Shown here one piece after another: positions 1 through 48,534 of a DNA stretch of 64,000 bases. Position numbers and translations under genes: made by a program. Below the pieces are notes generated by a model that worked only from the letters and a program-made list of their open reading frames with translations, did not search any database and was not told the DNA's origin. How positions within the stretch are numbered: position 1 is the first letter of the stretch; every line of letters begins with the position of its first letter. The stretch is taken from the NCBI RefSeq assembly GCF_006346325.1, contig NZ_VDYR01000001.1, forward strand, positions 620,001 to 684,000, given 5' to 3'. The stretch comes from Sphingomonas japonica (GTDB taxonomy: Bacteria; Pseudomonadota; Alphaproteobacteria; Sphingomonadales; Sphingomonadaceae).

Positions 1-1100
1 AACCGCCCGGCGAGAAGCCCGATCGCGGCGCTTTCGACATAGCCTTCGCAGCCGGTGATCTGTCCGGCAAAGCGCAGATGCGGCCGCGCCTTGAGCCGCA
101 GGCTGCGGTCGAGCAGTTCGGGCGAGCGGATGAAGGTATTGCGGTGCAGTCCGCCGAGCCGCGCGAATTCGGCATGTTCAAGGCCGGGAATGGTGCGAAA
201 GATGCGAACCTGCTCGGCATGCTTGAGCTTGGTCTGGAACCCGACCATGTTCCACAACGTCCCCGAGGCGTTGTCCTGGCGCAGCTGGACGCAGGCATAG
301 GGCCAGCGGCCGGTGCGCGGATCGTCCAGCCCGACTCCCTTCATCGGGCCGAAGCGCGGCGTATCGACCCCGCGCTCGGCCATCACCTCGATCGGCATGC
401 ATCCGTCGAAATAGGGCACGTCCTCCCACTCGCGAAATTCGGCCTTGTCGCCATCGAGCATCGCTTGGTGGAATGCCAGATACTGATCCTTGTCGAGCGG
501 GCAGTTGATGTAATCCTTGCCGTTTCCGCCCGGCCCCGCCTTGTCCCAGCGCGACTGGAACCATGCCACGTCCATGTCGATCGAATCGAAATGCACGATC
601 GGCGCGATCGCATCGAAGAAGGCGAGGCTGTCCGACCCCGTCGTCGCGCCGATGCTTTGCGCAAGCGCTTCGGCGGTCAGCGGACCGGTCGCGACGATGG
701 TCACGCCGCGCTCGGGCAGGCGATCGACGCGTTCGCGCACGATCTCGATATTGGGATGCGCCGCGAGACGCGCCGTCACGCCGTCGGCAAAGCCGTCACG
801 ATCGACCGCCAGCGCCGATCCGGCGGGGACCTGCGCGCGGTCGCCCTCGGCCATGATGATCGAGCCCAGCTGGCGCATTTCGGAATGGAGCAGTCCGACC
901 GCGTTGCGCTCGGCGTCGTCCGATCGAAAGCTGTTCGAGCACACCAGCTCGGCCAGCCGGTCGCTCTGGTGCGCAGGCGTCATGCTACCCGATCCGCGCA
1001 TCTCCGACAGGCGCACGCGAAGGCCCGCTTCGGCGATCTGCCACGCCGCCTCGGACCCGGCGAGACCGCCACCGATGATGTGAACGTGAGGATCGGTCAT
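1..1100 (-). CDS. trmFO: TrmFO, folate/FAD-dependent tRNA (uracil-54-C5)-methyltransferase, 3' end cut off
   Basis: Makes ribothymidine at position 54 of the tRNA T-loop using methylenetetrahydrofolate and FAD. The reading frame starts at the ATG at 1100 and is open to the window edge (about 366 codons; the family has about 450, so roughly 80 C-terminal residues are missing). The N-terminus has the FAD dinucleotide motif [13 protein letters not shown], followed by the family signature [19 protein letters not shown]. The last visible part ([18 protein letters not shown]) is also typical of TrmFO. It lies 4 bases after the aminotransferase stop, so the two are probably co-transcribed. The product assignment is firm. 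Confidence 0.93.
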
Positions 1101-35968: not shown

Positions 35969-38629
35969 TCAGGCGAAGATGATGTCGGTCTGAATGATCG
36001 CCGCATTGCTCTGGATGACGAAGTCAGCGACGAGATCGCCGTCGGTATCGCCCGCGACGAAGTAGCTGCCGCCCTGCGCATAAGTGCGCAGTTCGCCGGC
36101 TGCACCGCTGAATGCGGCGCCGTCGATCCAGGTGAAGGCATCCTGCCCGCCGCCATCGACGGCATCGATTCCGCTGACGTCGATCTTGTCCTGGCCGCGG
36201 CGGAAGTCGCCGATGCGATCGGTTTCGCCGAGATCGCTGAACACGAACGTATCGCTCCCGGTGCCGCCGGTGAGGAAGTCGGCACCGGCACCGCCGTCGA
36301 GCACGTCGTTACCGATGCCGCCGTCGAGCACATCGTCACCAGCACCGCCGAACAGGGTGTCGTTGTTGGCACCGCCGAGCAGGCGATCGGCACCGGCGCC
36401 ACCATCCAGCGTGTCGTTGCCGGCACCGCCGTCGAGCAGGTCGAGCCCCTCACCGCCGAGCAACGTGTCGTTGCCGGCGCCGCCGGACAATGTGTCGTCA
36501 CCGCCATTGCCCGACAGGCGATCGTTGGTGGTGCCGCCGGTGATCGTGTCGGCGAAAGCGCTGCCATCGACCGCTTCGATCGCGATCAGCACGTCGCCGG
36601 CCGCTTCGCCGCCGCTGCCGCCGCGCGTGGCAAGCGATACGGTCACGCCGGACCCGGAGTTGAGGTAGCTCGCCGTATCATAGCCGGCACCGCCGTCGAG
36701 ACGATCCGCACCGGCACCGCCGAGCAGCATGTCATCGCCGCGACCACCGGTCAGGACGTTGGCGACGTCGTTGCCGAGCAGCACGTCGTTGCCGTTGCCG
36801 CCGCTGGCATTCTCGATGACAACGCCATTGGCGATGGTGAAGCCGCCAAAGATGCCGTCGGCGAACGAGATCGCACCGCCGCCGGTCGGCGAATAGTCGA
36901 GCGTCGCGGCAAGCAGGTCGATCCGTGCGTCCCGATTGCCGGTGTAGCTGATCGTGTCGGTGCCGCCGGTGTCGTAGATCGTCTCGTAATAGGTACCGCG
37001 ATCGTTGACGTCCTTGAGCGTGTAGGTGGTGTTGCCGGTCGCGTAGTCGGGACGGACGTCGTACCGCTCCTGCAGCTTGGCGATGTCGAAGGCGCTGAGC
37101 GTGCCCGACCAGCCCTGATCGATCGTCGCGCCGGTATAGGGCGAGGGACCGTCGGGGTTGAGCTGCCACGCGTCGTTGTACGACATGACCGTGTAGACGC
37201 CCTGGTTGAGGTCAAAAAGACCCAGCGACCCCTGCGCCGCGGTGACACCGAGCATGACGTCGGACCCGCCGCCGCGATCGTGCGGATGCGCCAGGCCATG
37301 GGCATGGCCGAACTCGTGCAGGATGACCGCGAACGAATAGCCTCCCTGTTCGAGGCTCTGCTGCTGATCGAAGTCCCAGCCGCCGCTCAGGACGTTGAAC
37401 GCGCCGATGCCCTTGGCATCGCCGTAAGCCGGATCCTGCGGATAGAAATAGGCGCCATATTGTTCCGACTCGGTCGTGATCAGGCGGAAGGTCGCCTGCT
37501 CGACATCGGTGGTGATCTCGTAATTGGTGCCGAGGATTTTCTCATACTGCTCGAGCGCCTCCATCACCTGCTGCTTCTCATAGTCGTTCCAGCCAAGCGA
37601 CAGGATCGGACTGACGCCGTCGTCTGCCGTCTCGCCAAAGGTCTCGCCTTCCATCGCGAAATAGACATAGGCGGTGTTGGTCTCGTCGAACGGGACGTTC
37701 TCGGCGTTGACCCAGTCGATCGAATCGAGCGGATCGAACCCTGCCAGGTCGATCTCGTTCGCGGTCAACGAATATCCACCCGTGGTCCCCGAATATGCGA
37801 GCGCATCGATGTAATATGTGCCGGACTCGGTCGCGAAGAAGCTGGCGGCCGAGCTGATATCGCCGGGGAATGCGACGTCATCGTTGAAGGCGACGACATT
37901 GCCCTCTTCGTCGTAGATCTGCAAAACGGTATCAAGTTCGCCATCGACCAGGTCGAAATAGTTGGCACCACCGCCGGCGAGTTCGATCGAATAGAGCTTA
38001 CCCGCCTCGACCTCGATTTTGTAGGTATCGACTTCGGAATAGGTCGCGCCGAATGGCCCAGCACCGGGGTCGATGAAGCCGTAATTCACCACCCCCGCCT
38101 CGATCTCGACTGCGCCCGCGAACGTGTCCGGAACTTCGTCCACGCCCGAATACAGGATCGCGTCGAGCGTGTAGGTGCCGGTCGCGCCCTGGCCCGGAAA
38201 TGCGCCGACGCCGATGATGTGGGTGCCGGTATAGTCCGCGGTGTAGGTCAGCAGCGAGTTGGTGGCGCTGCCGCCGTCGTCATCCTCGCCGAGCAGGGCG
38301 GTGGCGTCCTCGTTGAACACATAGAGATAGGTGTCGCCGAGTGGATCGGCTCCCGATCCGTACGCGGAGAAGAGATAGGTCTGGCCCGCGACCAGATCGA
38401 TCTCATAGCCGTCGATCTCGGACCCGTCGATATCGCCATCGACCAGGATTTCCGCCGGAACCGACACTGCTGGCGCGGTCGTCGTCAGGCGGCCCGCAAC
38501 GTCTGCCAGGTGCGACTCGGTCGAACCGACCGCGAACGGTTCCGCAAGCGATTTCGGCGAAGTGCAGGCAGCGCAACCGCAACCCCATGTCTCCGATTCG
38601 CCAATGAAAAATGATTGACCGGTTTTCAT
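35969..38629 (-). CDS. Serralysin-like RTX metalloprotease (peptidase M10) with two pre-peptidase domains
   Basis: 886 residues from the ATG at 38629 (AGAGGGGA ribosome site); a longer in-frame extension has no ribosome site. A Cys-rich start ([12 protein letters not shown]) precedes two PPC-like beta domains (about 50-150 and 165-290). The catalytic domain has the zinc motif [14 protein letters not shown] near residue 438 and the Met-turn VMSYND. From about residue 600 there are around ten RTX calcium-binding nonapeptides (GGxGxDxLx, such as GGAGNDTLL), then a C-terminal type I secretion region. There is no signal peptide. Expected to be a secreted protease; it is the next gene downstream of the curli cluster, which may be its setting. 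Confidence 0.88.
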
Positions 38630-39017
38630 GAAACTATCCCCTCTGCAAATAGCGCACGCCGAGCGCGATTCGCAGAGAAGATCATAAAATATGCGCCGCG
38701 ACAATCATTATTAACCAGATATTGCCAAGTCCCGAGTCAATGGCGGAAAGCATCCCAAAGCTGACGAGGGGATAGGCCGGAGTCGCGCTTGCTTAAGGGC
38801 TTGTGCGCAATATCGCGATGCTTGTGCCATGCCGATCGCATCGCGGATGAAGGCGATCAGCTTGGCATGAGGTCATAAAGCGTTTCAATTCGACCCATTC
38901 GACCATGAGTCGACGTCGCGGATCTACATGCGCAGATCGCCAAACCACGGGAAAAGGCGCCGCGCTGAACAAAAGCAACGGACGCGATCACACGTAATAC
39001 ATCTGGACTAGGCGACT
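38630..39017. other. Intergenic region upstream of the metalloprotease, no gene seen
   Basis: 388 bases between the metalloprotease start and the last gene of the curli cluster. The part next to the protease (about 38,680-38,740) is AT-rich for this genome, with TAATAATGAT on the minus strand, and probably carries its promoter. The remainder contains only short ORFs without family resemblance or ribosome sites. I see no RNA gene or repeat in it. Confidence 0.5.
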
Positions 39018-39377
39018 TTACTTCAAGAAACCAAACCTTTCCATGAGCTGTTCGCGCGTAGCGATCTCCCGTTTGGCATTCGGCATCCGGACGACGTGCT
39101 CGTAGACGCCTGGTTCGATTTCCCGCCACCACGGCAAATCGATCGCACCCTGTTGCTTAAGATGGGAAAGATAGGCGTCGAGGGTGCGGAACGCCTTGCC
39201 GCGCGCGAATGGGAGGTTCTGGACACCCTCGGCCGATTGCATGGCACTTGCCCCTGGCTTGCGCGCCGGCAGACGCGGCATGGAGGAATTGTCCTGGGCG
39301 AAAATACCGGTAGCCGCCCCGGTTCCGACGGGAGCGGCGGCCATCGCCAGCGCCGCGATCAGGATCATTCCGGCCAT
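39018..39377 (-). CDS. Small secreted protein of unknown function, last gene of the curli cluster
   Basis: 119 residues from the ATG at 39377 (AAGGA ribosome site 7 bases upstream; an upstream TTG is also in frame). Signal peptide MAGMILIAALAMAAAPVGTGA. The mature part is basic and partly helical (FRTLDAYLSHLKQQGAIDLPWW), with a charged C-terminal segment (NAKREIATREQLMERFGFLK). No family recognised. It lies 84 bases after csgH on the same strand and may be an accessory of the curli system. Confidence 0.65.
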   Translation of the reverse strand: MAGMILIAALAMAAAPVGTGAATGIFAQDNSSMPRLPARKPGASAMQSAEGVQNLPFARGKAFRTLDAYLSHLKQQGAIDLPWWREIEPGVYEHVVRMPNAKREIATREQLMERFGFLK

Positions 39378-39461
39378 CCGCAATTCCTTTCCATCATCCC
39401 CGAGCTATCGCGGTCTGTCCGATATGCCGATCGACCGTGGGTCGGGCAGCGGCCATGGCGA

Positions 39462-39821
39462 TCATCCCTGTGGCCCGCGCTCTTGCGTGTAGCTTGCCGA
39501 GCTGGTCGGAGTGACGTCGAGCTTTGCCGACCAGTCGTCCGATCCGCCGCGGCTGACCTTTAGGTTGATCAGCGTGACGCGGCGGCCGGGTTCCAGTCGG
39601 GCGCGCCCGCTCTGCACCGACCGGTTGCTGCCGGAGCCGCCGCTCGACACCGCCAGCGTGTACGTCGCGTCGGTCGCCGCGTCGGCATTGCCGACCACGC
39701 GGACGCTGACCATGTCGCCGTCGGTCTCGGTTTCCAGATAGATCGGCGCGTGCGCCTCCTGCGCGGCGGAAAGGGGGGCACCGATCGTCATGAGCATCGC
39801 TCCTGCAAGGATCAATTTCAT
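39462..39821 (-). CDS. csgH: CsgH-like curli chaperone
   Basis: 119 residues: signal peptide (MKLILAGAMLMTIGAPLSAA), then an immunoglobulin-like beta sandwich with LETETDGDMVSVRVVGNAD, YTLAVSSGGSGSNRSVQSG, RVTLINLKV and DDWSAKLDVTP. The pattern resembles alphaproteobacterial CsgH, which holds curlin monomers unfolded in the periplasm and prevents early amyloid growth, in place of CsgC. An AAGGAG site 8 bases before the ATG supports the start. Curli genes lie on either side. Confidence 0.72.
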   Translation of the reverse strand: MKLILAGAMLMTIGAPLSAAQEAHAPIYLETETDGDMVSVRVVGNADAATDATYTLAVSSGGSGSNRSVQSGRARLEPGRRVTLINLKVSRGGSDDWSAKLDVTPTSSASYTQERGPQG

Positions 39822-39848
39822 CTCAGGCACTCCTTGGCCAATCCGGGT

Positions 39849-40640
39849 TCATTGCGGCACAGCACCTTGCGCGTTCTGGACGATCGCCTCGATCAGATTG
39901 ACCGTTTCGGGGCTGAGGCCATCGGTCGGATCCTCGGCATCGACCGGTGCCGACTGGGTGGGATTGCCCGGCAACACCAGGGATGCGACGCTTTGCGCAT
40001 CGCGCGCATCGGCATCGACGTCGCTGCGGCCGAGCCGCCGGACGATCGCCGCGGGATCGCCGGTCACCTCGCGCTGCTGCTGATCGATCAGCAGCCGCTG
40101 TTCGGGTGACAGCACCGGTGCGGTGGCGCTGCGATATTCGGAGGACCGGTTTTCGATCACGCGCGCGCAGGCCTCCGAGCCTGCCGCCGGTGCGCCGGGA
40201 TCGCAGGCGTCGGCGCCTCTGAGGCGGACGACGGCTTGCGGGCGGCTCTGGCCGCGGCTGGACAGCGGCGCCGCCGCCTGTGCGCTGCGTCCGCCGGTTG
40301 AAAGCTGGCTGCCGCCGGTGGCGCGATCGCGGCCGCCGACCTGAACCAGCGGGAGGGCGGGGGCCGATCCCGTCGGAACCTGCGCCATCGCCGGATCGGC
40401 GGGGGCGGTTCCCAACTGATCGACACCGGTTGAATCGGTTTGCGGTTCGGCGGTCGCCGATGCCGTGTCCTCTTCAGCGGCGCTTTCGATCTGGCGGATA
40501 TTGGTTCGGCTATCCCGATCCGCATCTGCGGCCTGACGCTGTCCGGCCGACGCCGCGGTCGCCGCAAGCACGAAGCAGACCAGTGGGAGCGTCCAGCCGG
40601 TCAAGCCGTTCGATCTTGGCACCAGGGTCGCTTCCGCCAT
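39849..40640 (-). CDS. Unknown low-complexity exported protein of the curli cluster
   Basis: 263 residues. A hydrophobic segment near residues 16-33 (WTLPLVCFVLAATAASA) acts as a signal peptide or anchor. The rest is rich in Ala, Gln, Ser, Asp and Arg, mostly disordered, with a short segment around one Cys pair (DACDPGAPAAGSEAC) and a helical stretch (SPEQRLLIDQQQREVTGDPAAI). No family recognised. It starts 23 bases after the curlin stop and ends 27 bases before csgH, so it belongs to the same transcript. Confidence 0.65.
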   Translation of the reverse strand: MAEATLVPRSNGLTGWTLPLVCFVLAATAASAGQRQAADADRDSRTNIRQIESAAEEDTASATAEPQTDSTGVDQLGTAPADPAMAQVPTGSAPALPLVQVGGRDRATGGSQLSTGGRSAQAAAPLSSRGQSRPQAVVRLRGADACDPGAPAAGSEACARVIENRSSEYRSATAPVLSPEQRLLIDQQQREVTGDPAAIVRRLGRSDVDADARDAQSVASLVLPGNPTQSAPVDAEDPTDGLSPETVNLIEAIVQNAQGAVPQ

Positions 40641-40663
40641 TGCCTGCCCTTACCGGTTGCGCC

Positions 40664-41338
40664 TCAGCGCGTTTGCGTGATCTGCATCGCCTGGCCACCG
40701 CTCTGCACGATGCCGAGGTCGCTCAAGCCATTACCCGTCTGCGTCCACATCAGGCGGTTTCCGCCGCCGTCCTGGCTCGCCGTCATCGCGTTTCCGTCGC
40801 CGTTCTGGACCAGCACCGCCTGGTTGTCGGCACCCTGCTGCGACAGCGTCATGTCGTTGTCGTTGCCCATCTGGGCAAGGATCGCGCCGTTGTCGGTCGC
40901 CGCGACAGCATCCTGTAGCGCGCGCAGCCGGTTCGCTTCGCCTTGTTGTTGCACGAACAGCGTGTTCGCGCCACTGCCGCGTTGCGCGATGACGGCATCG
41001 TTGTCGTTGCCGGTCTGGCGCAGTTCGGTGAAGCTCGCCGCCGATTCACGCTGCTCGACCTGCGCCGAGTTGCGGTCGCCGTTCTGGCGAAGGTCGCTGC
41101 GCGCCAGCGATGCCGACTGTTCGACGGTCGCGGAATTGCTGGAGCCGATCTGGCTGATGAACACGCTGCGTCCGCGCAACACCGGTCGCTCGACAGCAAT
41201 CACGCCCGGCGCGGAATAGAATATGCTTTCGGCAGGGGGCGTTTCGCCGACCGGCTCGCCCGTTTGCTGCGCGAGCGCGGGGGAGGCGGCGCACAGCAGC
41301 GCGGCGCTCATCGCAGTCGCTATCCTGGTTCGCATCAT
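40664..41338 (-). CDS. Short curlin-repeat protein, CsgB-like candidate nucleator
   Basis: 224 residues from the ATG at 41338 (GAGGA site). Signal peptide to ALAQQ, a non-repeat N-domain of about 40 residues (FYSAPGVIAVERPVL), then about seven curlin-type units (Q-x-G-x2-N spacing: LRQNGDRNSAQVEQ, LRQTGNDNDAVIAQ, LVQNGDGNAMTASQ). The last unit ends MQITQTR. Shortest of the three curlins, it is a candidate for the minor nucleating subunit, but the CsgA/CsgB roles cannot be fixed from sequence. Confidence 0.8.
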   Translation of the reverse strand: MMRTRIATAMSAALLCAASPALAQQTGEPVGETPPAESIFYSAPGVIAVERPVLRGRSVFISQIGSSNSATVEQSASLARSDLRQNGDRNSAQVEQRESAASFTELRQTGNDNDAVIAQRGSGANTLFVQQQGEANRLRALQDAVAATDNGAILAQMGNDNDMTLSQQGADNQAVLVQNGDGNAMTASQDGGGNRLMWTQTGNGLSDLGIVQSGGQAMQITQTR

Positions 41339-41366
41339 CGCCAATCCTCACGCATTCGAACAAGTA

Positions 41367-41399
41367 ACCCGGCCGGCATCCGGACGATGCCGGCCGGGT
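41367..41399 (-). terminator. 14-bp hairpin after the 462-residue curlin gene
   Basis: A perfect stem ACCCGGCCGGCATC/GATGCCGGCCGGGT (41367-41380 with 41386-41399) begins 7 bases beyond the curlin stop. On the minus strand it is followed by TTACTTGTTCG, a weak T-rich run. It may be a partial terminator or 3' end stabiliser between two curlin genes. Confidence 0.6.
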
Positions 41400-41405
41400 G
41401 CGACA

Positions 41406-42794
41406 TCAGGGACGACCCTGCGTCACCGAGGCCGTCAGGTTGCTGCCATCCTGAGTGACGGTCGAGAAGTTGCCGCTGCTGTACTGCGCGACCGACGCGC
41501 TGTTGTCCGCGCCATATTGCTCGATCGTCGAGACATTGTCGTCGCCGTCCTGGATCGTCGCGGCGTCATGACCGTCGCCGCGCTGGAGGATCGACGAGAG
41601 GTTGCGATCGCCGCCCTGGGTGATCGACGCGAACTGGTCGATGCCCATGCCGTCACCCTGATCGACGGTGCCGGTATTGCGGTTGCCGATCTGCTCGACG
41701 AATGCGACCTGCGTTTCGCCGCGCTGCTGGACGTCGGCAAAGTTGACGTCGCCCGACTGGATCACGTCGGCATCCTGCGTGTCGCCGCGCTGGAAGGTGA
41801 GGGCGGTGTTGCGGTTGCCGCTCTGATCCACGGTGGCGAGGTGGTCGTTGCCCGCCGCGGCGCCCTGATCGACGCCGGCGAAGTTGCTGTTCCCCGACTG
41901 ATCGACATAGCCGATGTCGGCGGTGCCCCGCTGCAGCATGGTAGCGGCATTGTTGTTGCCGCCCTGGACGATCGTGCCGATGTGGTCGCCGCCAGCCGCG
42001 CCGCCCTGATCCATGTCGGCGAAGTTGCGGTTGCCCGACTGCTCGACCAGCGCATCTTGGAAGCCGCCGCGCTGGCGGATGTTCGATTCGTTGTTGTTGC
42101 CCGACTGGATGACGCCGCGAACGGTCGCCGAATAGCCGGTGCTGTTGAAGAAGCCGCCCTGATCGACGACCGACTGGTTGTTGCGACCGGTCTGCTCGAC
42201 GCTGGCGAGGTTGAGCACGCCGTCCTGCGTCACGATCGAGGTGTTGCCGCTTTCGGCCTGTTCGACATAGGCATAATTGATGCCGCCGCCCTGATCGATC
42301 TGCGACATGTTGGTGCTGCCGGTCTGCATCACGTCGGCCGTGCCGAACGATCCGGTCTGTGCGACCACCGAGTCGTTGTCATTGCCGTCCTGCGTGACGG
42401 TGGCGACATTGTCGCCGTCGCCGCCCTGGTCCAGCTGGCTGTTGTTGCCGGCGCCGGTCTGGTCGACGGTGGCGTCGTTGCGGTCCGAGGTCTGGTTGAC
42501 CACCGACGTGCTGTCGCCGGCCTGGGTGACGGTCGCTGTGTTACGATTGTCGCCGTCGCCATCGTCCTGAGTGATCGTCGAATCGGCGCTGTCGCGCGAC
42601 TGGGTGACGGTAGCTTCGTTGCGATTGCCACCCTGCGTGACCGTCGAGAGATGATTCGAGCCGGTCTGGCCGACCGTGACGACACCGTTGGAGCCGGTCT
42701 GGGTGACGGTCGATTGGCTGTCCTGCGCGAACGCGGGAACAGCAGCGAGGAGTGCGAGCGCCGAGACGCCGCCGAGCGTGAGATGCTTGATCAT
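41406..42794 (-). CDS. Curlin-repeat fibre protein, 462 residues
   Basis: Signal peptide (MIKHLTLGGVSALALLAAVPAFAQ) followed almost at once by about 20 curlin repeats, recognised by V/I-x-Q-x-G-x2-N units (VTQTGSNG, VDQTGAGNNSQ, VIQSGNNNES, IVQGGNNNAA). Each unit should form a beta-strand-turn of a stacked amyloid. Typical CsgA is about 150 residues with five repeats, so this is roughly three to four times longer. A terminator-like hairpin sits on each side of the gene. Expected to be secreted by CsgG. Confidence 0.85.
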   Translation of the reverse strand: MIKHLTLGGVSALALLAAVPAFAQDSQSTVTQTGSNGVVTVGQTGSNHLSTVTQGGNRNEATVTQSRDSADSTITQDDGDGDNRNTATVTQAGDSTSVVNQTSDRNDATVDQTGAGNNSQLDQGGDGDNVATVTQDGNDNDSVVAQTGSFGTADVMQTGSTNMSQIDQGGGINYAYVEQAESGNTSIVTQDGVLNLASVEQTGRNNQSVVDQGGFFNSTGYSATVRGVIQSGNNNESNIRQRGGFQDALVEQSGNRNFADMDQGGAAGGDHIGTIVQGGNNNAATMLQRGTADIGYVDQSGNSNFAGVDQGAAAGNDHLATVDQSGNRNTALTFQRGDTQDADVIQSGDVNFADVQQRGETQVAFVEQIGNRNTGTVDQGDGMGIDQFASITQGGDRNLSSILQRGDGHDAATIQDGDDNVSTIEQYGADNSASVAQYSSGNFSTVTQDGSNLTASVTQGRP

Positions 42795-42822
42795 GATCTG
42801 TTATCCTTTGACGAAAGAAAAA

Positions 42823-42852
42823 ACCGGCGCCTTCGCAAAGGAAGGCGCCGGT
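42823..42852 (-). terminator. Rho-independent terminator between the two long curlin genes
   Basis: A perfect 12-bp stem ACCGGCGCCTTC/GAAGGCGCCGGT with loop GCAAAG lies 11 bases past the giant curlin stop. On the minus strand it is followed by TTTTTTTCTTTCGTC. This is a strong intrinsic terminator inside the operon; partial readthrough, or a separate promoter, would be needed for the next curlin. Confidence 0.82.
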
Positions 42853-42863
42853 AATTCCAGTCG

Positions 42864-45857
42864 TTACATGCCGCCCTGCGTGACCATCGCCGAGTTGTTC
42901 GAACCCGACTGCATGATCACCGAGTCGTTCATCATGCCGGTCTGCAGCACGGTCGCCGTGTTGTCGGTCCCGCCCTGATCGATCGTCGACATGTGGTCGC
43001 TGCCGCGCTGCGTCACGTCGGCAAACCCGCCGGTGCCGGTCTGGCTGATGCTCGACATGTTGTCGAAGCCGACCTGCAGCGAATAGGCGGTGTTTGCGTC
43101 GCCCGCCATCGCGGCATAGCCGGTCTGGCTGATAGTCGAGCTGTTGCCCGAACCGTCCTGACGCGCCTCGGCGACTGCGCCCATCGCGAATTCGGCCGGG
43201 CTTGCAGCGAAGCCGTCCGAAATCTGGTCGATGAACACGCTATTCTCAGCACCGCCGCCGTTGTTCTGGCGGACGTCGGCGCGTGCGCTGCCGTTCTGGA
43301 AGTCCTGCTGGACGTCCGAACGGTTGCCCGTGCCGGTCTGGACGATACGCGCGTCGTTGTCGGTCGAGGTTGTCGATGCGTAGTTCGAGATGTTGTCGCC
43401 GCCGGTCTGGCGGACGACGACATCGCCGTTCGAAGCGTTGCGACCCTGGGTCACGTACGATTCGTTGCTGAGCGGGCCGTCATTCTGCATCTGGTTCACA
43501 TCGACCGTGCTGCCCAGGTTCACATTGTCCTGGAACACGTTCGAGATGTTGGCCTGTCCAGGCGAACCCGCCATGCCGGCATCGTTCTGCACCACGCGGA
43601 CCGTGTTGGCCGGAGGAGCGAGGTTCGAATCCGCCAGCGTCGTCACGGTCGAGGTCGAGCCGCTCCAGCCGCTCTGCCGCACGACGACGTCGCCGCCGGC
43701 CTGCTGCGTCACGGTCGAGGTGCTGTTGTCACCGTCCTGAACGACATTGGCGGTCGCGAACGAACCGGTCTGATCGATCCGCGAGACGTTGTCGTTGCCG
43801 TCCTGACGCGAAACCGCGTCGTTGGTCGAGCCGCCGCTCTGGAAGATGCGGCTCTGGTTGCTGGCGCCGTCCTGAACGATGGTCGCGATGTCGAGGTTGC
43901 CCGACTGCGAGATCTGGCCGATGCCGTCGGTGCCGGTCTGGACCAGGCGGGCCTGGTTGTCGCCCGACGAAGCGACGTCGGTCGTCGGCTGGCTGTCATG
44001 GCCCTTTGGCGGGAACACTTCGGGATCGGACACGCCGCCCTGGGTGACCTGTGCCATGTTGCCGTCGCCACCCTGGCGCAGCGTCAGCTGGTTGCCGCCG
44101 GCGCCGCCCTGATAGGTGTAGCCCTGGGCGTTGTCGCCGTTCTGGACGACCACCGCACCCTGTGCGCCCGCGCCGCGCTGGAAGCCTTCCAGCTTGTTCG
44201 CGTCGCCGTCCTGCGTGATCGAAGCCGACGAACCGGCGGCATTCGAGTTCTGCTGGAAGAAGGTGTAGTTGTCGTTGCCGGTCTGAGCGATGTCGAGCGC
44301 CGACCCGTCGACGCCGCCTTCCTGCTTGGCGATCGCGCCGTTGCGGTCGCCGTCCTGGTCGATCGACACCGTGCCGCCGATCGAGGACTGCTCGATCGAC
44401 GCGCTGTTGTCGTCGCCCAGCTGCGCTACGTCGCCGTTCGAACCCGAAGCGCTACCGGTCTGGTTGACGTACGAGCTGTTGCTGAAGCCGTCCTGCGACA
44501 CCGTCGTGAAGGCGCCCGACGACTGGAGCACGTTCGATTCGTTGCCATCGCCGATCTGGCGGACATCGGCATCGGCGAACGCTCCCGACTGGTTGATGAG
44601 CGAGGTGTTGGTCGGCGCATTGGCCGGTGCACCGATGTTGGCGCCGCGCTGATACACGCGAGCGTTGGCGTCGCTGGCCGACTGGGTGATGCGCGACGCG
44701 TTGCGACCGAAGTCGTTGGGCGCGACGCTGCCCTGGTTGACGGTGGCGGTCGCTTCGGCGGTCTGGTCGATCACCGAGGTGTTGTAGACGTCTGCCTGAC
44801 GGACATCAGCGGTCGCCGCTGCCGACTGGTTGATCGCCGAGCGGTTGAGCGTGCCGTTCTGGACCAGCGACGCATCGGCGCCGTCGGCATCCTGGTCGAT
44901 CAGCGAGACGTTGTTGGCATACGACGTGCCAGCCGACGACGGAGGCAGCGTATCGCCGTCCCAGTTACGTGGGCCAAGGCCGTTCGGGCCGCCGCGCTGT
45001 ACGACATTGGCGGTGGCGCCGGCCGACTGGTCGATGACCGAGGTATTGTCGTCGCTGCGCTGGGCGACGGTCGCGCTGGCGCCGGCGCCCGACTGGGCGA
45101 TGTCTGAAACGTTGCCGTTGCCGACCTGGGTGGCGGAAGCGAAATTGTCTTCGCCGGTCTGCTCGACGTCGGACAGGTTGTCATCGCCATTCTGGACGAC
45201 GAATGCTTCCTGGCTTCCGTTCTGGATCACGCTGTTCTGCAGCACGTTCGAATCGTTGCGGTTGCCCGACTGGGACACGTCGGCGCTCGTCAGGTTGGCA
45301 CCCGCTCCGCCATTCTGCTCCTGCTGGACGAACGACGCGTTGTCGTCACCGTTCTGGCTGACGGCAGCACGCGAATAGGCCGAAGGATCCTGATCTATGG
45401 TCGACGTGTTGCGATCGCCGCGCTGGATGACGCCGCCACGCGACGTGTTGAGCGCATTGCCGACGCCGTTGCTGTTGCCGTTCTGGAGCACTTCAGAGAA
45501 GTTCTCGGTGCCCACCTGATAGACTTCGGCTTCGCTCGACGTGCCGGCCTGGTTGACGCGCGAGGTGTTGTCGCCGTTCTGGAAGACCTGGACTTCGTTA
45601 CGGTCGGAGCCCGACTGCACGACTTCCGAGTCCGCGCTGTCGCCGCGCTGCTCGACGACGACTTCATTCTGGCGCGCCAGGTTGGTGCCGTTGCCGGACT
45701 GGGTAACGGTCGAGGTGCCGTTGCTGCCGTTCTGCGTCACGACGGCGTCGTTGAACGCGCCGCTCTGCGTAACCGTGGAGGTGCTGTCCTGCGCCATCGC
45801 CGGCATTGCGGCGAAGAGTGCGATCGATGAGACCGACGTCAAAATAGTGCGTTTCAT
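42864..45857 (-). CDS. Giant curlin-repeat fibre protein, 997 residues
   Basis: Signal peptide (MKRTILTSVSSIALFAAMPAMAQ), then roughly 40 repeats of the curlin type (Q-x-G-x2-N spaced about 22-24 residues, for example VTQSGNGTN, VFQNGDNTS, VVQDGDNST, VTQRGSDHM). Most repeats keep the inward Gln and Asn ladder. A few insertions (near 300-320 and 640-660) interrupt the ladder with Pro/Gly stretches. No other domain, anchor or C-terminal sorting motif is seen. It is about six times the size of E. coli CsgA. Gene order and hairpins suggest it is made separately from its neighbour. Confidence 0.85.
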   Translation of the reverse strand: MKRTILTSVSSIALFAAMPAMAQDSTSTVTQSGAFNDAVVTQNGSNGTSTVTQSGNGTNLARQNEVVVEQRGDSADSEVVQSGSDRNEVQVFQNGDNTSRVNQAGTSSEAEVYQVGTENFSEVLQNGNSNGVGNALNTSRGGVIQRGDRNTSTIDQDPSAYSRAAVSQNGDDNASFVQQEQNGGAGANLTSADVSQSGNRNDSNVLQNSVIQNGSQEAFVVQNGDDNLSDVEQTGEDNFASATQVGNGNVSDIAQSGAGASATVAQRSDDNTSVIDQSAGATANVVQRGGPNGLGPRNWDGDTLPPSSAGTSYANNVSLIDQDADGADASLVQNGTLNRSAINQSAAATADVRQADVYNTSVIDQTAEATATVNQGSVAPNDFGRNASRITQSASDANARVYQRGANIGAPANAPTNTSLINQSGAFADADVRQIGDGNESNVLQSSGAFTTVSQDGFSNSSYVNQTGSASGSNGDVAQLGDDNSASIEQSSIGGTVSIDQDGDRNGAIAKQEGGVDGSALDIAQTGNDNYTFFQQNSNAAGSSASITQDGDANKLEGFQRGAGAQGAVVVQNGDNAQGYTYQGGAGGNQLTLRQGGDGNMAQVTQGGVSDPEVFPPKGHDSQPTTDVASSGDNQARLVQTGTDGIGQISQSGNLDIATIVQDGASNQSRIFQSGGSTNDAVSRQDGNDNVSRIDQTGSFATANVVQDGDNSTSTVTQQAGGDVVVRQSGWSGSTSTVTTLADSNLAPPANTVRVVQNDAGMAGSPGQANISNVFQDNVNLGSTVDVNQMQNDGPLSNESYVTQGRNASNGDVVVRQTGGDNISNYASTTSTDNDARIVQTGTGNRSDVQQDFQNGSARADVRQNNGGGAENSVFIDQISDGFAASPAEFAMGAVAEARQDGSGNSSTISQTGYAAMAGDANTAYSLQVGFDNMSSISQTGTGGFADVTQRGSDHMSTIDQGGTDNTATVLQTGMMNDSVIMQSGSNNSAMVTQGGM

Positions 45858-45896
45858 GGTTGTCTATCCTCTGTTCGGACGTGATAACCATGTCGC

Positions 45897-45910
45897 CCCC
45901 GCAAGCGGGG
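45897..45910. repeat. Small extragenic palindrome
   Basis: CCCCGCAAGCGGGG, a short GC palindrome in the leader of the giant curlin gene, about 40 bases before its ATG. Palindromes of this type often recur between genes; copies elsewhere cannot be checked here. Confidence 0.45.
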
Positions 45911-45944
45911 CCAACATGATAGCTAAGTGCAACCCAGACTTCCT

Positions 45945-45976
45945 GCGCGCATCGGAGCTGCAACTCCGGTGCGCGC
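45945..45976. other. Strong 13-bp hairpin in the giant curlin leader
   Basis: GCGCGCATCGGAG/CTCCGGTGCGCGC with loop CTGCAA and one G-T pair. It lies in the 251-base gap between csgG and the giant curlin gene. There is no T run on either strand, so an mRNA structure is more likely than a terminator. Confidence 0.5.
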
Positions 45977-46108
45977 TTCGTTGTGGGGTTGGCGCCGACT
46001 GCAACCGGTCGTGCCCCACCCTGGAATTTCGTTTCCGAAAGGGACGCCAGGACGCCCCGTTCCGGTATTCGATCCGTTCCGGCGCAATTGCCGGTCCGGG
46101 GAATCTCG

Positions 46109-47095
46109 TCAGCGCGAACCGCCTGCGCTTGCCCCTCCTTCACGCCGTTCGGGAGGGGGAACATCGCGCGGCCGTACCTTTTCGGGCGGGGCCGCTTCGG
46201 CGCGTTTCATCGCCGTTTGAACCTGTGCCGCGTCGAACACGCCGTCGCGCTCCTGGCGATAGCGCCACAGCATCGGCCAGCCGGCGGTCTGGTCCGCGAA
46301 ATCCCACAGCTTGAGATCGACGCCTTCCATCACCAGGCCATAGACAGCCTTCTCGACCGCCTGCTGCAGCGCGAGCTGGTCGGGTTCGTTGGTGGTGACG
46401 CCGGTCTCGGCCTCGAGCAGCTCCTTGAACGCGACGAACTTGAATACGCTGGCTCCGATCGAGCGCGAGGCGATCGTCTTGGACGCGGTGACTGAGGTCA
46501 GCACTTCGCCGGTGCGCACGGAAACCGCGCGCAGATAGACGGTGACGGTGTCCTGCCGATACTCGCCGCGCGCGCCGATGCCGAGGAACGCGGCGCCCGC
46601 ACCGCCGGTGACGGTGTTGGTGTCGTAGCCGACAATGCCGCCTTCGATCAGCACGCCGGCGAACAGCAGCGCCGGCAGCGCCTGCGCATTGACGCCGGTC
46701 TCGCCCAGATAGCGTTCGCGCATCTCGCGGATGATCTGGCGCTCGCTCAGCAGGTTCTTGAGCGATTCACGCTCGACGATCGTGAACCACTGGCGGTTGC
46801 CGACATCCTGCAGCGCCTTGACCAGGATCGATCCGCCGCCCTGCGATACCGCGCGCGACAGCGTCTGGCCGACGTCGCTCGGCTTGAACTGGCCGGTCTG
46901 GTCGGTGAAGCCATAGACCGCGACCGCGACCGGGCGGGCAGGGGGCGGGATCGCCTCGAGCGCCTTTTGCGTCTGGGTCTTGGCGGGATAGACCGCCAGG
47001 CTGCTGGTTTCGGGGATCAGGTCGCGGCCGGAATTGCCGATCGTGGTGCACGCGGACAGCGATACGCCCGCGACGAGAAGCGCGAGCAGCCGCAT
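46109..47095 (-). CDS. csgG: CsgG curli secretion channel lipoprotein
   Basis: About 328 residues. Lipobox VSLSAC directs acylation at Cys. The protein then follows CsgG: VAVAVYGFTDQTGQFKPSD, TLSRAVSQGGGSILVKALQD, RQWFTIVERESLKNLLSERQ, ALLFAGVLIEGGIVGYDTN, and the transmembrane hairpins (GARGEYRQDTVTVYLRAVS). A nonamer of such units forms the outer-membrane pore for curlins. The C-terminal tail (PPERREGGASAGGSR) is longer and more basic than usual. The start is ATG 47095 or GTG 47098, overlapping the csgF stop. Confidence 0.93.
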   Translation of the reverse strand: MRLLALLVAGVSLSACTTIGNSGRDLIPETSSLAVYPAKTQTQKALEAIPPPARPVAVAVYGFTDQTGQFKPSDVGQTLSRAVSQGGGSILVKALQDVGNRQWFTIVERESLKNLLSERQIIREMRERYLGETGVNAQALPALLFAGVLIEGGIVGYDTNTVTGGAGAAFLGIGARGEYRQDTVTVYLRAVSVRTGEVLTSVTASKTIASRSIGASVFKFVAFKELLEAETGVTTNEPDQLALQQAVEKAVYGLVMEGVDLKLWDFADQTAGWPMLWRYRQERDGVFDAAQVQTAMKRAEAAPPEKVRPRDVPPPERREGGASAGGSR

Positions 47096-47577
47096 CACTG
47101 GACCTCTAGGAAGGTCGGGATCACGATCGTCGTGATCTCGCCGGTTGCATCGTTGGTGATGGTCAACGTGACTTCGTCGAGCGAGCGGAAGAAGTCGATG
47201 GTCTGCCCGCCGAAGCTGATCGTGCCGCTTTCCTGGGGATTTTCACCGAAGATCGCATCGACGATCTGCGAGGAGAGCGACGACAGCAGCCGCGATTGCA
47301 GCTGGCGCGCGAAGATGTCGGCTTCGGTGCTGTTCGACGCGACCGACGACGGGTCACGGAAATCATTCTGCGCGTTGGCGATGCCGAGCAGGTGCGACGA
47401 GTTGAACGGATTGCCGCCGAACGATGGATTGATCGGCGTATAGGTGATGTCCTGGGCGGCGGCCGGTGCGGTCATTGCAATCGCCACGATCGGCAGGGCG
47501 ATCACGACCAGCGTGCGACCGCTCAGCCGACGACGAATTGCGCGCCAAAAGGCGCCGGTTCGAACGAATTGCCCCAT
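47095..47577 (-). CDS. csgF: CsgF, curli secretion/assembly factor
   Basis: 160 residues from the ATG at 47577 (GGGGG ribosome site). After a signal segment (TLVVIALPIVAIAMTAPAAAQ) comes the diagnostic CsgF N-terminus YTPINPSFGGNPFNSS, which binds the CsgG lumen and couples export to nucleation. The remainder (IVDAIFGENPQESGTISFGG, DEVTLTITNDATG) follows the family helix and C-terminal strands. Translationally coupled to csgG. It is the first gene after a 342-base regulatory gap. Confidence 0.9.
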   Translation of the reverse strand: MGQFVRTGAFWRAIRRRLSGRTLVVIALPIVAIAMTAPAAAQDITYTPINPSFGGNPFNSSHLLGIANAQNDFRDPSSVASNSTEADIFARQLQSRLLSSLSSQIVDAIFGENPQESGTISFGGQTIDFFRSLDEVTLTITNDATGEITTIVIPTFLEVQ

Positions 47578-47919: not shown

Positions 47920-48534
47920 TCACAGAATGCGATAGGGCCGCAGCCTGCTGAACATCTCCTCGCGCGACCGGACCCCGACCTTCGAATAGATCCGTCGGAC
48001 ATGCGTGCGCACCGTATCGACCGAGATCAGCAGATCGGTGGCGAGCTGGCTGGCGGTGCGGCCGTTGAGCAGGCCGACCACGATGCGGTGCTCGGCGCGA
48101 GTCAGCGAAAAGACGCGGTCGATGTCGCTGTAGTTCGCCATGAATCCAGCCGTATCGCGCGTGAATTCAAGGCATGCCGCCGATCGGCCGTCGACGCCGA
48201 TCCGTCGCCCGCGGAACAAGAGATGCGCGGAGCGGTCGGGGTAGGGGATCGACACGGTCCCAAGCTCTTCCCCCAGCGCTTCGATGAAGTCGGTGAAGTC
48301 GCGCTGTGCGGTGGCGGAGGCAAAGGCCAGCGCGCCATCGCGCAGGACGACGCCCGCATCGTCGCCAAGCTGCTGCGATGCCGGCCGGTTCGACCAGAGC
48401 ACCTGCAGATCGGCCGCCACGATCAGCCTTGGGCGCGAATCCGCGCCCAACCAAGCAAGCGCCAGCGTCGCCAGGTCGGGCGCCTCGGCTGCATCCTGTT
48501 CGGCGATCCGTTCGTTGAGCACATCTTTCCCCAT
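47920..48534 (-). CDS. LuxR-family regulator, candidate curli regulator
   Basis: 204 residues: an N-terminal PAS-like half (RPRLIVAADLQVLWSNRPA, RDFTDFIEALGEELG, SAACLEFTRDTAGFMANY), then a LuxR-type helix-turn-helix (FSLTRAEHRIVVGLLNGRTA, DLLISVDTVRTHVRRIYSKVGVRSREEMF). CsgD in enterics is also a LuxR-type protein, though its N-terminus is a receiver. This one sits just upstream of csgF on the same strand, so control of the curli genes is plausible. It is divergent from the DUF389 gene with a 239-base gap. Confidence 0.85.
   Translation of the reverse strand: MGKDVLNERIAEQDAAEAPDLATLALAWLGADSRPRLIVAADLQVLWSNRPASQQLGDDAGVVLRDGALAFASATAQRDFTDFIEALGEELGTVSIPYPDRSAHLLFRGRRIGVDGRSAACLEFTRDTAGFMANYSDIDRVFSLTRAEHRIVVGLLNGRTASQLATDLLISVDTVRTHVRRIYSKVGVRSREEMFSRLRPYRIL

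Follow-up and report, generated by a model that had tools for sequence, protein, structure and literature searches.

In Escherichia coli, the subunit CsgA carries a 22-residue leader whose start is recognised by CsgG, and CsgE caps CsgG; deletion of csgE strongly lowers curli secretion (PMC6957492). The constriction of this pore is formed by CsgG Tyr66, Asn70 and Phe71 together with CsgF Asn36 (PMC7304575). Alphaproteobacteria are described as lacking csgC, csgD and csgE, with csgH adjoining csgA/B, and their curlin homologues reach 529 residues with 22 repeats, while CsgB homologues vary little in size (PMC3521004). CsgH is a CsgC-like amyloid inhibitor (PMC4838910). Across curlins, 4-62 repeats per protein and up to 30 copies per genome were reported, and all models were solenoids (PMC10192328). 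The present analysis concerns a curli gene cluster of Sphingomonas japonica at positions 39018-47577 of a 64,000-nucleotide stretch (contig NZ_VDYR01000001.1, positions 620,001 to 684,000), hereafter the window.

The cluster lies entirely on the minus strand, running leftward. Read 5' to 3' on that strand, it comprises csgF, csgG, three curlin genes for 997, 462 and 224 (226) amino acids (aa), a gene for a 263-aa protein, csgH and a gene for a 121-aa protein, with intergenic gaps of -4, 251, 69, 61, 23, 18 and 78 base pairs (bp). By this gene content, the locus is assigned to the curli or type VIII secretion operons of known alphaproteobacterial type. Subunit length, missing csgE and csgH are already known. 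Less expected are a lineage-wide undescribed component and the combination of one fixed short curlin with several modular long ones. The cluster is probably best explained, judging from the encoded proteins and their relatives, as a curli operon without csgE in which modular long subunits are combined with a short curlin resembling CsgB and with a previously undescribed two-cysteine (two-Cys) machine component, the 263-aa protein.

The two-Cys gene (39849..40640, minus strand) encodes a secreted-type protein with a signal-peptide-like N terminus, as judged by eye, and the motif GxDxC..C..[IL]E.R[SA]. It matched no family in Pfam or NCBIfam. A profile search returned 99 sequence clusters including its own, from a list leaning to close types, as scoring was confined to the 8000 candidates with the most words in common. 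All 99 carried the two-Cys motif and none had a precomputed Pfam domain. The genera named among them were Erythrobacter, Qipengyuania and, once, Parvularcula, and carriers of the two-Cys gene set were Erythrobacter longus DSM 6997, Erythrobacter sp. NAP1 and Qipengyuania sp. S6317L1. Judged by such named relatives, the host of the operon would be an Erythrobacteraceae-like member of the Sphingomonadales. The family was present in 17 loci: the window, L027-L029 (single-sequence genome search), L030 and 12 named loci (contig scan with 12 close sequences). They belong to one lineage and are not independent. The gene was located between the short curlin and csgH in 17/17, csgG was present in all of them and csgF in 16, the stretch of L053 being cut at csgG. 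With a 22-member profile, the family was detected in these 17 loci and in 0/23 other curli loci compared. Across the class (385 genomes), the only hit of a profile search was the own genome, with absences being soft at no more than six candidates scored per genome. Absences by the single-sequence genome search are likewise soft, since it missed the member in G127 (L030), which was found by reading. At L048, L055 and L057, one two-Cys neighbour was first recognised only by six-frame reading.

The short curlin gene (40664..41344, minus strand; 224 aa from ATG, 226 from TTG; PF07012 expectation value (E) 1.2e-13) adjoins the two-Cys gene. The signature L.W.Q.G..L was found in the last repeats of exactly one curlin per locus in all 17 two-Cys loci, and the bearer was always this short curlin. 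Among the curlins found in 23 loci without the two-Cys family (L026, L042-L046, L075-L091), none carried the signature, counting L080, where the motif used found no curlin. The short curlin was the one curlin that none of the 17 loci lacked. Its start and end were conserved, and counting from the first Met of its frame it measured about 197-258 aa. Shortness, a single copy in 17/17 loci, little variation in length and special last repeats fit the published behaviour of CsgB and mark it as a CsgB-like candidate nucleator. The NCBIfam models, with 65.9 bits for CsgB and 65.2 for CsgA, both under cut-off, did not separate the two types.

Long curlins numbered 48 in the 17 loci, with 0-4 per locus and 332-999 codons between stops. 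The 997-aa curlin of the window was the longest (999 codons between stops), followed by one of 865. The core locus of L057 held the short curlin and zero long curlins. It was at first taken to represent a genome whose only curlin was the short one, which was overturned by a genome search giving five long curlins at four other places. No csgG, csgF or csgH match was found near these five in the 14-18 kilobases (kb) inspected. Long curlins thus look modular, being variable in number per locus and scattered in one genome.

Both long curlin genes of the window, coding for 997 aa (42864..45857, minus strand; PF07012 E 6.6e-53) and 462 aa (41406..42794, minus strand; E 2.8e-56), matched the curlin repeat profile, and the three window curlins together scored 51-188 bits (cut-off 20.7). 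The 997-aa protein contained 68 strand motifs against a mean of 19.5 in 500 shuffles, 31 of them at an exact spacing of 11 residues against a mean of 0.4. It matched the solved curlin PDB 8c50 by sequence (E 1.2e-19). Its AlphaFold2 model, calculated from a 10-sequence alignment, was all beta with 74 strands, a mean predicted local distance difference test score (pLDDT) of 68.1 and a predicted template modelling score (pTM) of 0.57. The model was better at residues ~30-290 and ~315-520 and poor at ~760-890. This agrees with the repeat solenoid proposed in a preliminary description of the cluster. The about 40 repeats given there proved slightly high, as 74 strands correspond to roughly 34-37 two-strand repeats, although the repetition as such was far beyond chance. 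The same description regarded a 997-residue subunit as special in kind. This did not hold, and length was ruled out as a novelty, because proteins with up to 62 repeats are published (PMC10192328) and curlins of 1160 and 1632 aa are also on record.

The two long curlins of the window also differed at their N termini from E. coli CsgA. In both, the first repeat began 9 residues past the predicted cleavage site, and neither had an N22-type leader by this heuristic. The same heuristic placed the first repeat 8-14 residues past the site in 39 of 50 long-type curlins from the 17 loci and L026; ten started further off and one was not measurable. Short curlins varied in their leader, with the first repeat at most 14 residues past the site in 7/17. 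Such leader-poor long curlins may therefore be recognised in another way than E. coli CsgA, which CsgG binds at the N terminus (PMC6957492).

Hairpins of at least 10 pairs were located 3' of 34 of the 48 long curlins in the 17 loci, compared with 1/17 short curlins, 1/17 csgG, 1/16 csgF and 0/17 two-Cys genes. Shuffled sequences gave rates of 1.2-3.8%, with 1.6% for long-curlin and 3.8% for short-curlin positions. In the window, a 12-pair hairpin with a T tail (42823..42852, minus strand) followed the 997-aa curlin gene and a 14-pair hairpin (41367..41399, minus strand) the 462-aa curlin gene. A terminator scan over the window cluster gave 5 sites against 6.9 in shuffles, showing no excess by the scan alone. 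A T-rich tail was present in only 7/34 of the long-curlin hairpins, so most are not classical terminators, and their role would rather be partial termination or 3' protection. Hairpins also followed four of the five unlinked curlins in the genome of L057.

The absence of csgE was consistent at all levels searched. The CsgE profile PF10627 had no match in the whole genome (2.86 megabases, 99.83% complete) or in samples of 147 genomes from the order and 385 from the class, and the E. coli CsgE positive control was detected in every search; a hidden csgE was rejected on this basis. Within the stretches compared, csgE adjoined csgF in 15/15 non-alphaproteobacterial csg loci and in 0/25 alphaproteobacterial ones; for L049, L055 and L058, the sequence upstream of csgF was shorter than 800 bases, and that of L053 was truncated at csgG. 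Since absent csgE is published for Alphaproteobacteria, this excludes the enteric type and not the alphaproteobacterial type. The preliminary description, which had seen no csgE in the cluster, had also held that a csgE and a short csgA elsewhere in the genome would make the cluster less special. No such csgE was found, but a second csgF-csgG locus was present at about C1:1742591-1746465 (L026, G000:C1:1736000-1754000), comprising csgF, csgG, two curlins (520 and 207 aa), a 178-aa protein unrelated to the 263-aa protein, and csgH. A tyrosine recombinase adjoined it (3748-5499 of L026, minus strand) and a resolvase lay further off (331-909, plus strand), suggesting a possibly mobile island. No transfer RNA gene was found in its 18 kb.

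The curli system is patchy in distribution. Within the order, CsgF was detected at E <= 0.001 in 8/147 genomes, seven over the cut-off and one (G060) with a weak match below it; the 9 further listed genomes of the same genus had none. In the class, 7/385 genomes had CsgF, six of them over the cut-off. L032 (G103, another of the eight) held a csgF fragment, csgH and a piece resembling the two-Cys C terminus by eye, and the frames kept gave no match to csgG or to curlin; it looks like a decayed curli locus. In L031, of the same order, csgF, csgG and curlins were present and neither csgH nor a two-Cys gene was found. In this AT-rich relative (L031:9270-14946), curlin genes were interleaved with two open reading frames that looked like sulfotransferases by eye.

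CsgG (46109..47098, minus strand; 329 aa) matched PF03783 with E 1.6e-59 (201.2 bits, cut-off 20.8) and PDB 3x2r with E 9e-55, and its start was lipobox-like by eye. CsgF (47095..47577, minus strand; 160 aa, signal-peptide-like start) matched PF10614 with E 7e-35 (120.5 bits, cut-off 25.8) and the CsgF of PDB 6l7a; the two genes overlap by 4 bp. In the alignment, the CsgG Phe71 position was Leu in the window and the CsgF Asn36 position was Phe. In the following comparison, lineage is wholly inseparable from csgE status, which was read from the stretches compared above, and the result serves as a pointer only. The CsgG Phe71 position was Leu in 19, Tyr in 5 and Phe in 1 of 25 csgE-less loci, and Phe in 11, Ile in 3 and Tyr in 1 of 15 loci with csgE. 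Two residues further, Thr was found in 15/15 loci with csgE versus Arg in 23/25 without. CsgF position 36 was Phe in 20/24 csgE-less loci versus 1/15 with csgE, where Leu was commonest (8/15) and Asn occurred in 3. Compensation of the CsgG change from Phe71 to Leu by that of CsgF from Asn36 to Phe would be suggestive only.

When pairwise distances were compared across the 17 loci, those of the two-Cys protein correlated with those of CsgG (0.94), CsgH (0.89) and the short curlin (0.69). Given CsgG, the value for CsgH fell to 0.13 (p 0.27), and short curlin and CsgH retained 0.30 (p 0.011). The correlations fit vertical descent of the two-Cys protein as a machine part.

Several observations weigh against the two-Cys protein as a dedicated component of this machine and against the wider picture drawn from it. 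All loci apart from the window and L030, which entered via CsgF, were fetched because the family was present. The family was absent by profile from the csgE-less alphaproteobacterial loci L026, L042-L046, L076 and L090 and by motif from csgE-less L031, so it is not a general requirement for secretion without csgE. Its model was mostly disordered (pLDDT 61.5, pTM 0.25), with helices at 179-193, 196-205, 213-219 and 244-258. No similarity to E. coli CsgE was found (hhalign probability 0.1%), and a remote CsgE was rejected for this reason; no likeness to a solved structure was found either, the best match being a designed protein at E 0.13. Given CsgG, the correlation of two-Cys protein and short curlin was not significant (r 0.09, p 0.23), leaving their specific co-evolution beyond common descent unsupported and no special tie to the short curlin. 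Hairpins also followed 12/27 curlins in loci with csgE and 8/16 in other alphaproteobacterial loci, and they were rejected as unique to the two-Cys lineage.

For the csgE-less operon proposed here, gene content, conservation, position, csgE absence, the signature and the hairpins are observations, whereas each functional step is inferred. Curlins would be exported by Sec, held unfolded in the periplasm by the CsgC-like CsgH and threaded in this state through the double-ring pore formed by CsgG and CsgF. The short curlin with the signature would act as a CsgB-like nucleator attached to the cell. Long curlins, perhaps supplied in differing amounts through their 3' hairpins, would fold outside as solenoids and extend the fibre. 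The 263-aa protein would be an integral part of the machine, most likely periplasmic and near CsgG, and might perform the capture or gating done elsewhere by CsgE.

A sharper form of this explanation casts the two-Cys protein as a stand-in for the function of CsgE, which as an adaptor in the periplasm would capture curlins and gate CsgG. No csgE was detected where the protein occurs, its divergence tracks that of CsgG most closely, and the early first repeat in most long-type curlins would suit a different mode of recognition. The missing similarity to CsgE, the csgE-less loci without the protein and the mostly disordered model argue the other way, and the correlation of 0.94 may be plain common descent; the stand-in can be entertained tentatively. 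Its most far-reaching version, a lineage-wide CsgE replacement in which an intrinsically disordered adaptor delivers curlins without a leader, up to 1000 residues long, to a Leu-constricted CsgG with Phe36-CsgF, appears doubtful.

Alternatively, the two-Cys protein may itself be exported and form an anchoring or nucleating pair with the short curlin on the cell surface. The two genes adjoin in 17/17 loci, signature and protein co-occur or are both absent across 40 loci, and by eye the N-terminal half of the protein shows loose Q-[LV]-S-x-G repeats reminiscent of curlin spacing. Their joint presence could equally be one lineage marker, and with the partial distance correlation not significant, such a pair is rather unlikely. 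It is also unlikely that the locus is nothing new, namely an ordinary curli operon of the alphaproteobacterial type whose CsgA homologue is long. The absence of csgE, csgH and long curlins are indeed published (PMC3521004, PMC4838910, PMC10192328), but no description of the two-Cys family, the paired short-curlin signature or modular long curlins was met in the literature searched, mainly non-subscription journals. Finally, a co-chaperone of CsgH or a passenger without a role in fibre assembly, as might be read from the position directly upstream of csgH in 17/17 loci and the 18-bp spacing in the window, is improbable; the motif kept in 99/99 clusters speaks against a passenger, and csgH occurs without the two-Cys protein in L026.

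Other secreted-looking proteins were found at the post-curlin position. The 178-aa secreted-looking proteins at L045:9873-10409 and L026:6023-6559 lay directly 3' of the last curlin and had no Pfam match. Loci without the two-Cys gene may thus carry other accessory types at this position. Comparisons gave no support for a relationship of the 263-aa protein with the L026 protein or with the post-curlin accessory lipoprotein of L042, and the lipoprotein of L043 was compared by eye only.

CsgH of the window (39462..39830, minus strand; 122 aa) matched NF041112 with 67.3 bits (cut-off 35) and PF21112 with E 1.3e-8 (35.2 bits, cut-off 27). Its single-sequence match to PDB 2n59 was weak (E 0.035). 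It contained zero cysteines and so lacked the two distant cysteines described for CsgH (PMC4838910), while 15/17 related loci had two. The CsgH at L027:9131-9475 had a CxC motif, which is published as characteristic of CsgC. The secreted-looking 121-aa protein (39018..39383, minus strand) had no Pfam or NCBIfam family above cut-off, no match in 39 other curli loci compared and was found in 1/147 genomes of the order, its own. It was rejected as a machine part owing to its absence from those loci. It had 109 relatives, many only 73-85 aa long and matching about 55-60% of it. The 251 bp that separate csgG from the first curlin (45858..46108, minus strand) included a 13-pair hairpin (45945-45976), called on the plus strand by the scan, and a sigma-70 consensus scan of the gap gave no promoter match. 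Upstream of the cluster, a LuxR-type regulator (47920..48534, minus strand; PF00196) reached 24.1 bits with the CsgD model (cut-off 250). An RTX/serralysin-like metalloprotease with PPC domains (35969-38704, minus strand) was located just downstream on the same strand.

The genes named in the preliminary description, namely csgF, csgG, three curlins, a CsgH-type chaperone and two secreted proteins of no known family, were all borne out, and the curlin, CsgF, CsgG and CsgH profiles were each above cut-off. The more unusual traits, which it did not raise, are the conserved two-Cys protein, entered there merely among the unknowns, the distinctive short curlin, the second locus and the modular nature of the long curlins with their 3' hairpins. 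For CsgE-less curli secretion in Alphaproteobacteria, the two-Cys lineage provides a defined gene set in which a conserved component and a nucleator can each be named as candidates. The long modular subunits are of interest for engineered fibres.

Compared with csgDEFG-csgBAC of E. coli, CsgG, CsgF and curlin-repeat subunits remain recognisable by sequence. Unlike E. coli, the window has no CsgE, CsgH takes the place of CsgC, and the subunits measure 997, 462 and 224 aa versus about 150. Leu replaces Phe71 in CsgG and Phe replaces Asn36 in CsgF, and the long curlins lack an N22-like leader by heuristic. As in the alphaproteobacterial csgH operons (PMC3521004), csgG, csgF, curlins and csgH stand together, no csgE or csgC was found and csgD was below cut-off. 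Unlike the operons described there, each locus has an extra two-Cys gene and 0-4 long curlins with one signature short curlin. CsgH belongs to the same family as that of Rhodopseudomonas palustris (PDB 2N59, PMC4838910) by NCBIfam and Pfam, the window copy being cysteine-free. With the long CsgA homologues of 4-62 repeats (PMC10192328; e.g. PDB 8c50), the window curlins share the repeat family, and their length falls within the published range.

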